Source: Nitrososphaerota archaeon | Lineage (GTDB): Archaea > Thermoproteota > Nitrososphaeria > Nitrososphaerales > Nitrosopumilaceae | Length of the DNA: 64,000 nucleotides | Direction of reading: 5' to 3' | Assembly (NCBI GenBank): GCA_021323705.1 | Contig: JAJPKL010000039.1 | Span: forward strand, 1-64,000 | Part shown: piece after piece, positions 9,410 to 12,451 of the stretch | How positions within the stretch are numbered: the first letter of the stretch is position 1 | Layout: every line of letters begins with the position of its first letter | Program-made: the position numbers and the translations under genes | The notes under the pieces: generated by a model | What the model was told of the DNA's origin: nothing | Database searches by the model: none | Seen by the model: only the letters and a program-made list of their open reading frames with translations

Positions 9410-10489
9410 ATGACAGATCTTTACCGCGTACTGCCAGACGAGATGGATGCACTTGTAACAAGTATGGGGCAGACAAGATATCGCGCAGACCAGCTACTGC
9501 TAATGCTATACCACAAGTTTCCAAAGGATATCTCTTCGCTACATCAACTGCCTTCAGAATTTCGGGAGAAGCTAGTTGCGGCAGGATACACAATTGGTTC
9601 TGCAACCGAGGTTCACCGAGTCGTAAGCAAGGATGGATACACAACAAAACTTCTTCTCAAGCTTGGAGACGGAACTTTGATTGAGACCGTATTGATGCAG
9701 TACAAAAAAGAAAAAGGACATCCAAGGTCAACAGTATGTGTCTCAACACAGGTGGGCTGCCAGATGGGTTGCACATTTTGTGCCACGGGCCAGATGGGAT
9801 TTGAGAGAAACCTCAAAGCAGAAGAAATTGTTGCTCAGGTGTTACACTTTGCCTTGTTGCTCAAAAAGCGCGGAGAACACGTCACGAACCTTGTCTTCAT
9901 GGGAATGGGAGAACCGCTTGCAAATTATGCAGAAACAATCAGGGCAGTGCGGCTGCTGACAGATCCTAGAGCGTTTGGCCTAGGACAAAGGCACATCACA
10001 ATATCCACCGTAGGCGTGATGCAGGGAATTGCTAGTCTAGCAAAAGAGGACCTTCAGGTGGGTCTTGCAATCTCACTTCACGCACCAAACAACGAACTGC
10101 GCAAAAGACTTGTGCCTACTGCAAGACCAAACTCTGTAGAAGACTTGATTGCAACTACGCGAAGCTACTTCAAAAAGACAGGTAGGCGAGTTACTATAGA
10201 ATATGCATTGATAGAAGGCGTCAACGACTCGCCTGAAAATGCAGCAGAGCTTGCCGCACTGCTCAAAGGAAATGGAACGCATGTCAACCTGATTCCAGTA
10301 AACCCAACTGCTGGTGGGTTTGAGCGCCCCAAGTGGAAGCGCATAACGGATTTTGAACGCATACTAAAAGAATCCAAGATAAGTTGTACTGTGAGAGTGG
10401 AGAAGGGAGTGGAGATATCTGCAGCCTGTGGACAGCTGAGGACCGATGTAATAAGGAACATCAAGACTTCCCCTGTTATGGGAAAATAG
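9410..10489 (+). CDS. rlmN: RlmN-type radical SAM adenine C2-methyltransferase
   Basis: The product is 359 residues with full RlmN architecture. An N-terminal helical domain (RYRADQLLLMLY) is followed by the radical SAM cluster site C117-x3-C121-x2-C124 in GCQMGCTFC. The accessory Cys110 lies seven residues before the cluster. The methyl-carrying Cys340 is in ISAACGQLR near the C-terminus. GMGEPLANY is the SAM-binding GGE-like element. Bacterial RlmN makes m2A2503 in 23S rRNA and m2A37 in some tRNAs. Both catalytic Cys are present, so the enzyme should be active. It is mainly a bacterial family and was possibly acquired by transfer. Confidence 0.95.
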   Translation: MTDLYRVLPDEMDALVTSMGQTRYRADQLLLMLYHKFPKDISSLHQLPSEFREKLVAAGYTIGSATEVHRVVSKDGYTTKLLLKLGDGTLIETVLMQYKKEKGHPRSTVCVSTQVGCQMGCTFCATGQMGFERNLKAEEIVAQVLHFALLLKKRGEHVTNLVFMGMGEPLANYAETIRAVRLLTDPRAFGLGQRHITISTVGVMQGIASLAKEDLQVGLAISLHAPNNELRKRLVPTARPNSVEDLIATTRSYFKKTGRRVTIEYALIEGVNDSPENAAELAALLKGNGTHVNLIPVNPTAGGFERPKWKRITDFERILKESKISCTVRVEKGVEISAACGQLRTDVIRNIKTSPVMGK

Positions 10490-10546: not shown

Positions 10547-10807
10547 ATGCACAAAGATAGGGGCGTCTGCAAGGGGATTTGCAGGCAATACAAGGCCAGA
10601 AAACCGCGAGATGGCTCAAGCCGCTACCTATCAGATCAGGTGAGGTGCCAGATTTGTGGAATCTTCATGTCTCGAGAGGGATGCCACGACAGGGATGACA
10701 GGCCTGCAAAAAGCGATACGGTGGACCTGTACTGTAATTGCTGCAACTGTATGGTTCGCTCAAAGCCAAGAAACAAACCTCGCATGAAAAACGAGGAAAT
10801 CAACTAA
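10547..10807 (+). CDS. Cys-rich putative zinc-binding small protein
   Basis: The product is 86 residues, basic at both ends. Cys motifs lie in three places: VCKGIC near the N-terminus, CQICG in the middle, and YCNCCNCM near residue 65. A nearby GC(H) completes a possible two-site zinc fold. The protein is hydrophilic, has no signal or membrane helix, and is likely cytoplasmic and nucleic-acid associated. No named family is recognised, though the Cys spacing looks conserved rather than random. The gene starts 58 bp after rlmN on the same strand and may be co-transcribed. Confidence 0.75.
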   Translation: MHKDRGVCKGICRQYKARKPRDGSSRYLSDQVRCQICGIFMSREGCHDRDDRPAKSDTVDLYCNCCNCMVRSKPRNKPRMKNEEIN

Positions 10808-11275: not shown

Positions 11276-11635
11276 TCTATATTGTTAACCAATTTTTTAT
11301 ATTTAGTAATTTAGAAGATTTTCTATGATGCTATCTTCTGTATGAGTTTTAGGAATTTATTTGGTGAGAAAAGCATGTCTTTGCAATTGACAGATAATCT
11401 TTCAAACCACACATCAACGAAAATGAATTTTAAAACCTCACTAATTTTATGGATTGTACCTAATTAACATTGTAACATACTGCTGCAGCAAGTGAGATGA
11501 AATTAGAAAAAACGATCCCTGCTCACATCCCTCATTTTCATTTTTTAGCATCTCTGAGAAATGCATCCTTTGAAAAGCAGCATCAAAATGACGGTTCGAT
11601 CCAACTAGAACAAAGTCTTATCGCTGAACAATCTT
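11276..11635. other. Gene-free AT-rich spacer
   Basis: About 360 bp separate two minus-strand genes. It holds AT-rich stretches with TATA-like ATTTTAAAAC near 11427 and a perfect 10-bp palindrome TGCTGCAGCA at 11481-11490. A 68-codon plus-strand frame from 11497 runs into the opposite gene and has no family resemblance. I see no convincing gene or RNA fold here. Confidence 0.5.
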
Positions 11636-12271
11636 CTAGATTCTTTTCCACACAGGGATGTTCAATCTTGCACACTTTTGGTATAGCAATACAATATAGA
11701 TGACATCGCACACAAATATCAAAACATAGAATGCAGGCAAGACTAGAGATTGATGCGATATTGGCTGATACAAGTAAAACGCTATGCTTGAAACTGCTGT
11801 ACCAGCCATCTTGAATAGGCCTATGTAGATGGACTGTCCTCTGGGATGGTTTCTGCTCCGAAGCATCATGATAAAGAAAACCGACATGACAAGATTCTGG
11901 CCAAACGCAGCATATGCCCCCTGCCAATCATCTAGTTGATAACATATGAGATAGATTGCAAGAGATGATATTGCCACAGCTGTCATGAACAAAGAGCAAA
12001 TCTTTCTTGGAGAAAACTTTTGAAACTCTGATGCGCCGTATCTCAAAAATTGTACCACAATTACCAGATCCAGTGAAAACCAAGCGTAGTTTATGTAAAG
12101 TTGTGGAGGTAAATGAGGGTGCACAAACGAAAAGATTGTCTCCCATGAAATGTTTGCAGATAGGGCAATAAACGGCATCCCAAAGGTCTTGTCATTGAAG
12201 CCGCGTTTTATTATCAAGACATAGGTAAGGGACCAGAAGACTCCTCCGAGCACCATTAGTTCTGTAAACAA
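11636..12271 (-). CDS. Seven-helix membrane protein resembling Pyr4-type transmembrane terpene cyclases
   Basis: The product is 211 residues with about seven hydrophobic helices. The segment KTFGMPFIALSANISWE at residues 28-44 resembles the GMP...N.(A/S)WE signature of fungal meroterpenoid and indole-diterpene cyclases such as Pyr4 and PaxB. In those enzymes one Glu and one Asp in the membrane protonate an epoxide or alkene. Matching acidic residues here would be Glu44 and Asp189 (VCDVIYIV in the last helix), with spacing close to that of Pyr4 E63/D218. A role in cyclising or otherwise handling an isoprenoid is inferred. No prenyltransferase gene is adjacent, so the substrate is unknown. Confidence 0.62.
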   Translation of the reverse strand: MFTELMVLGGVFWSLTYVLIIKRGFNDKTFGMPFIALSANISWETIFSFVHPHLPPQLYINYAWFSLDLVIVVQFLRYGASEFQKFSPRKICSLFMTAVAISSLAIYLICYQLDDWQGAYAAFGQNLVMSVFFIMMLRSRNHPRGQSIYIGLFKMAGTAVSSIAFYLYQPISHQSLVLPAFYVLIFVCDVIYIVLLYQKCARLNIPVWKRI

Positions 12272-12451
12272 CTAGAGTGCTCATCGCGCTTCATCTTATT
12301 AGTATTGTCCATTGTACGGGATATTTCCACTCATTTTTTAAGACAAAAAGTGATCACCGATCTATACTCTATCGTAGTGGAACCATGAGAGCTGTTAATC
12401 TAGAAAGATGTTTCATTACCATACTTTAAAAACGGGTTGATCAGAGCAGTC

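Follow-up and report, generated by a model that had tools for sequence, protein, structure and literature searches.

Positions 11636–12271 of the window, by which we mean the whole 64,000-nucleotide stretch of Nitrososphaerota DNA that was analysed, encode a small membrane protein that had been likened to the Pyr4-type terpene cyclases. The locus therefore raises the question of whether an archaeon carries such a cyclase and, if it does, on which molecule the enzyme might act. Membership of the family Nitrosopumilaceae points to an ammonia-oxidiser lineage for the source organism.

Identification of a Pyr4-like gene

The minus strand carries the gene as an ORF of 211 codons, read from 12271 down to 11636, with a TTG start immediately after a TAG; the plus strand across the same interval contains 12 stops. 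The TTG start is credible, because the homologues open with a Met codon in the equivalent position and continue with identical residues (MFTE...). Translation of the ORF shows both the GMPFIALSANISWE segment and the Asp of the last helix.

A Pfam search of the 211-residue protein returned one family above its cut-off of 27 bits: PF25129, the Pyr4-like transmembrane terpene cyclases, which scored 87.7 bits (E = 1.2e-24), protein residues 5–197 being aligned to profile positions 20–222 of 227. The original prediction had placed the protein among Pyr4-type cyclases and named a profile search of that family as the check; this match, together with the retention of the DmtA1 residues described below, bears the placement out. 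Each of the 25 aligned homologues has its own PF25129 match, none of the 14 control genomes has one, and the family match is far beyond chance. The size of the protein and its seven predicted helices fit the trait of the family (about 200–250 residues, seven transmembrane helices). An NCBIfam search of the protein gave no family, and no relative was found by searching PDB sequences with the single protein or with a profile, or by scanning IMG/VR with the family alignment. By its sequence, the archaeal protein is a genuine representative of the Pyr4-like family PF25129.

A prokaryotic form of these enzymes had been expected to be new. That expectation fails, since bacteria are already known to have Pyr4-like cyclases, several of them characterised; among the established ones are XiaH, DmtA1, TylF, GroF and ZigF (PMC13307353, PMC6173783), and a survey confined to bacteria counts 1107 Pyr4-like candidates (PMC13307353). 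Terpenoid genes lie near 264 of the 1107, so that orphan bacterial members are common and uncharacterised. No paper on archaeal Pyr4-like cyclases was found in a partial literature search, and the protein apparently extends a known enzyme family, characterised so far in fungi and bacteria, to a further domain of life.

Conservation of catalytic residues

In DmtA1, the variants W29A, W59A, Y33A and Y33F are inactive, E60A and E60Q abolish function, and D214A, N56A and Y217A are nearly inactive or poorly active, the latter applying to N56A and Y217A (PMC6173783). All seven of these mutagenesis positions are kept in the archaeal protein, as W13, Y17, N40, W43, E44, D189 and Y192, with a constant numbering offset of 16 for the first five and of 25 for the last two. 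On the minus strand, the codons for W13 to Y17 (DmtA1 W29, Y33) occupy 12221–12235, and both residues are invariant among the homologues (W 24/24, Y 24/24). Those for N40 to W43 (DmtA1 N56, W59) occupy 12143–12154 (N 24/25, W 25/25), and Tyr192 (DmtA1 Y217) is encoded at 11696–11698 (Y 24/24). The codon of the proposed proton donor, Glu44 (DmtA1 E60), lies at 12140–12142, also on the minus strand, where all 25 aligned homologues have E, and that of Asp189 (DmtA1 D214) at 11705–11707, with D in all 23 homologues having the column.

Glu44 and Asp189 had been matched at the outset, with similar spacing, to the two essential acids of Pyr4, which we take to be E63 and D218, the positions quoted in that earlier prediction. 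The match is upheld by the conservation of both residues and by their separation, which is 145 residues against 155 in Pyr4; the corresponding distance in DmtA1, between E60 and D214, is 154 (PMC6173783). A further acid of DmtA1, D94, helps to protonate the alkene (PMC6173783) and falls by spacing on Y78 in the archaeal protein. An alkene start is thus unsupported by that residue, and the residues leave the mode of initiation unsettled.

Predicted structure

An AlphaFold2 model, built from a three-sequence alignment and of moderate confidence (mean pLDDT 73.5, pTM 0.67), has seven helices (residues 2–26, 31–50, 57–82, 88–113, 119–139, 148–168 and 177–202), the number that had been predicted. 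Given this moderate confidence, the orientation of the two acids was judged by helical wheel and not by distance in the model: E44 is ~176 and D189 ~164 degrees from the hydrophobic moment of its own helix, placing both near the conserved, polar, non-lipid face.

When the window-protein model was compared with the PDB using Foldseek, SWEET (5cth), cystinosin and the KDEL receptor were among the top matches. A second AlphaFold2 model, of a deltaproteobacterial homologue (L003 5974–6621; pLDDT 69.9), gave the same first fold family and again ranked SWEET and the KDEL receptor near the top, although it was built from the same three sequences and is not fully independent. The top PDB matches of both models have probabilities of 0.94–0.99 and TM scores of about 0.44–0.53, with E-values no better than 0.11 (0.12 for the window model), which is not significant; most other matches have TM scores of 0.15–0.3. 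Against viral proteins, the window model gave PQ-loop matches (E 0.008–0.17 for the top five, two of which are named PQ-loop). None of the 25 members matched the PQ-loop/MtN3 Pfam family at E ≤ 1e-3, an hhalign profile comparison detected no internal repeat of 3+3 halves, and a partial literature search turned up no publication that connects PQ-loop proteins to terpene cyclases. The models thus offer a SWEET/PQ-loop/KDEL-receptor fold for the whole Pyr4 cyclase family as a possible lead and not as proof; if true, it would bear on how the family arose.

Genomic context

Comparison by blastn and tblastn with two related genomes, G292 and G259, places the gene in a probable single-gene insertion of ~1.1 kb (approx. 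11343–12424). Both genomes lack the cyclase at this locus and keep the flanking order: RlmN, an 86-aa ORF, orf136, the insertion point, a 257-aa ORF, cupredoxin and HtpX in G292 (L082), and RlmN, the 86-aa ORF, orf136, the 257-aa ORF and HtpX in G259 (L083). The insertion edges show no direct repeats longer than 10 nt and no transposase or mobile-element signature. The difference reflects either insertion here or loss from the G292 and G259 loci, and insertion is favoured because carriers of the same genus have the cyclase at other sites. In the window, an RlmN-type radical SAM methyltransferase (9410–10489) is followed by a small cysteine-rich ORF (10547–10807), an arrangement common to most genomes of the genus.

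No conserved neighbourhood was found across 20-odd cyclase loci. Isoprenoid genes are absent beside the cyclase in the window and do not recur among 140 neighbour proteins, on which ground a reading of the locus as part of a gene cluster was rejected. The commonest recurring neighbour family was methyltransferases, at 7 of the 140, a count that is unremarkable without a background.

Two local arrangements elsewhere were also recorded. A PAP2-type phosphatase lies ~2.1 kb from the cyclase in L044 (11244–11882) and in L032, which come from genomes of different archaeal families, and in the gromomycin cluster the PAP2 gene groG adjoins the cyclase gene groF; the proximity of PAP2 to the archaeal cyclase may be chance. 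On the Nostoc sp. C057 plasmid p057_N (L053 16842–18662), a Pyr4-like gene directly precedes an annotated isopentenyl phosphate kinase (AA_kinase family), which is an isoprenoid context in a cyanobacterium.

Distribution and selection

Within the order, 400 genomes were screened and 22 hold the family; among the 209 of high quality the count is 16. The carriers are spread over two families and six genera, and 9 of 70 genomes of the second archaeal family have the gene. A sample of the phylum yielded the cyclase family in 6 of 398 genomes, including one fragmentary occurrence in a genome from another order. The occurrence is patchy, with the gene present or absent within single genera. A genome of another archaeal order (G526) holds two fragments of a Pyr4-like protein (L048 and L049) that are more actinobacterial-looking (FALGLNFAWE) and may represent a separate acquisition or contamination.

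The closest non-archaeal relative found is that of the deltaproteobacterial MAG (L003), at 51% identity and among bacterial-looking neighbours; homologues on two Nostoc plasmids are 48–49% identical, and those on Streptomyces plasmids 35–43%. A 25-row tree groups the 20 archaeal proteins in a single clade (support 95/97); next to it stand the Nostoc pair, at weak support (80/54), and deltaproteobacterial relatives. The bacterial relatives were drawn from plasmids and one proteobacterial group; since the resulting five bacterial rows are few, the tree goes no further than to suggest a single transfer into archaea.

Pairs with unsaturated dS have dN/dS values of 0.03–0.12, indicating that the archaeal gene is under strong purifying selection. 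One copy, in G292 (L038 9098–9718), is interrupted by one internal TAG, and those in G063 (L046 9267–10017) and G153 (L047 3768–4398) are frame-broken, which suggests loss in some lineages or assembly errors. Because broken copies occur in some relatives, the product is dispensable there; the gene is useful where it is kept and dispensable otherwise.

Pathway genes and the likely substrate

The source genome contains no P450 and no squalene/phytoene synthase (SQS_PSY). Its five UbiA matches compare with three to five in same-family relatives lacking the cyclase, and its several FAD_binding_3 matches score low and cover the profile incompletely (the best, at 32.6 bits, spans profile positions 1–169 of 349), while relatives that lack the cyclase have as many. 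No co-occurrence of the cyclase with extra UbiA, P450, SQS_PSY or FAD_binding_3 was seen. With neither P450 nor SQS_PSY, no extra UbiA and weak FAD_binding_3, no dedicated prenylation or epoxidation is evident, and a core, non-epoxidised compound is consequently the likeliest substrate, an assignment that we hold tentatively. Most fungal members take substrates epoxidised by flavin monooxygenases (PMC10882540). Epoxidation is not needed by the Pyr4-like enzymes MfmH (PMC10882540) and DmtA1, and GroF is proposed to act, likewise without it, on hexaprenylguanidine (PMC12105684).

Proposed reaction and alternative explanations

Judged by family and residues, the archaeal protein is probably a proton-initiated terpene cyclase, and alkene-initiated cyclisation of a core polyprenyl compound would be the most economical reading. 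A polyprenyl-bearing molecule would enter the cavity of the seven-helix bundle from the membrane, where Glu44 on helix 2, aided by Tyr17, Asn40 and Asp189, would protonate one of the prenyl double bonds, and the ensuing cation cascade would close one or more rings. Trp13, Trp43 and Tyr192 may help to shape the cavity or stabilise the cation. The substrate would be something already made by the cell, such as a geranylgeranyl-lipid precursor, a prenyl alcohol or diphosphate, or a menaquinone precursor, with no dedicated meroterpenoid involved, and cyclisation would start from an alkene and not from an epoxide.

The lack of both a conserved neighbourhood and a neighbouring isoprenoid pathway counts against a cyclase. 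The low share of bacterial candidates near terpenoid genes also means that orphan members could have taken on a different role, and the archaeal protein might then be a fold-family member that no longer cyclises terpenes and functions in the manner of SWEET, PQ-loop or KDEL-receptor proteins, whether as a carrier, as a receptor or by binding lipid in the membrane. Such a role would account for the missing terpenoid neighbourhood and is what the leading PDB matches and the viral PQ-loop matches would resemble. However, the PDB E-values are not significant and the models are of moderate confidence, neither a PQ-loop/MtN3 match nor an internal repeat was detected, and the fold may simply be that of the Pyr4 cyclases themselves. 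The keeping of all seven cyclase residues would be unexpected in a carrier, and we consider this role unlikely.

A somewhat smaller chance attaches to a meroterpenoid cyclase of the classical type, whose substrate would carry an epoxide on its prenyl chain and whose fellow pathway genes would be scattered through the genome. The habit of most fungal members (PMC10882540) speaks for it, as do the several FAD_binding_3 and five UbiA-type matches in the genome, but there is neither a P450 nor a gene cluster, the FAD_binding_3 matches are weak and no more frequent than in relatives without the gene, and the UbiA counts are the same as in those relatives. As a membrane protein that occurs in this lineage and comes from a family of ring-forming enzymes, it might also be thought to close crenarchaeol's cyclohexane ring in ammonia oxidisers, a step for which we know of no identified enzyme. 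Crenarchaeol is, as far as is known, nearly universal in the order, whereas the gene is confined to 22 of 400 genomes and is present, absent or broken within genera; this patchiness led us to reject the candidate, and such a role is highly improbable.

Returning to the proton-initiated cyclase, we hypothesize, with considerable reserve, that some ammonia-oxidiser lineages took up one bacterial-type Pyr4-like cyclase, which in the absence of a dedicated pathway ring-closes a core isoprenoid of the cell (a quinone, a prenyl alcohol or diphosphate, or an unsaturated ether-lipid precursor) to give a cyclic terpenoid or lipid undescribed in Archaea, and that Pyr4 cyclases share the SWEET/PQ-loop/KDEL-receptor fold. 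A selectively maintained stand-alone copy would imply that a cyclic isoprenoid has so far been overlooked; it might be a variant lipid or quinone, which could serve as a biomarker, or a compound with inhibitory action. With a substrate that is probably simple, the protein would also represent a cyclase in minimal form, and its interest would rise if its product turned out to be a lipid or quinone of the archaeon.

Comparison with known systems

The SWEET, PQ-loop and KDEL-receptor proteins (PDB 5cth, 7zk1, 6i6j), with seven helices in a 3+1+3 arrangement, are the best structural matches of the two predicted models; seven helices are likewise predicted for the archaeal protein. They differ in lacking a sequence-family match, the E-values being not significant, and are carriers or receptors that are not known as cyclases.

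Pyr4 and about 60 fungal homologues belong to the same Pfam family, PF25129, and their two catalytic acids correspond to Glu44 and Asp189. The fungal members are found in meroterpenoid or triterpenoid clusters and act mostly on epoxides from flavin monooxygenases, whereas the archaeal gene stands alone, with no dedicated epoxidase evident. TylF, of the cyanobacterial tolypodiol pathway, GroF, XiaH and ZigF are likewise prokaryotic Pyr4-like cyclases (PMC13307353, PMC12105684), TylF and GroF being compared here by description and not by sequence. Their genes are adjoined by a prenyltransferase, an oxygenase and other pathway genes, and the archaeal gene is without such neighbours.

DmtA1, from drimentine biosynthesis in Streptomyces (PMC6173783), is encoded in a cyclodipeptide-terpene cluster whose prenyltransferase resembles phytoene synthase, a family that the archaeal genome lacks, and has the extra acid D94 where the archaeal protein has Y78. 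The two proteins have in common seven helices, predicted in the archaeal case, and all seven tested residues, at matching spacing.
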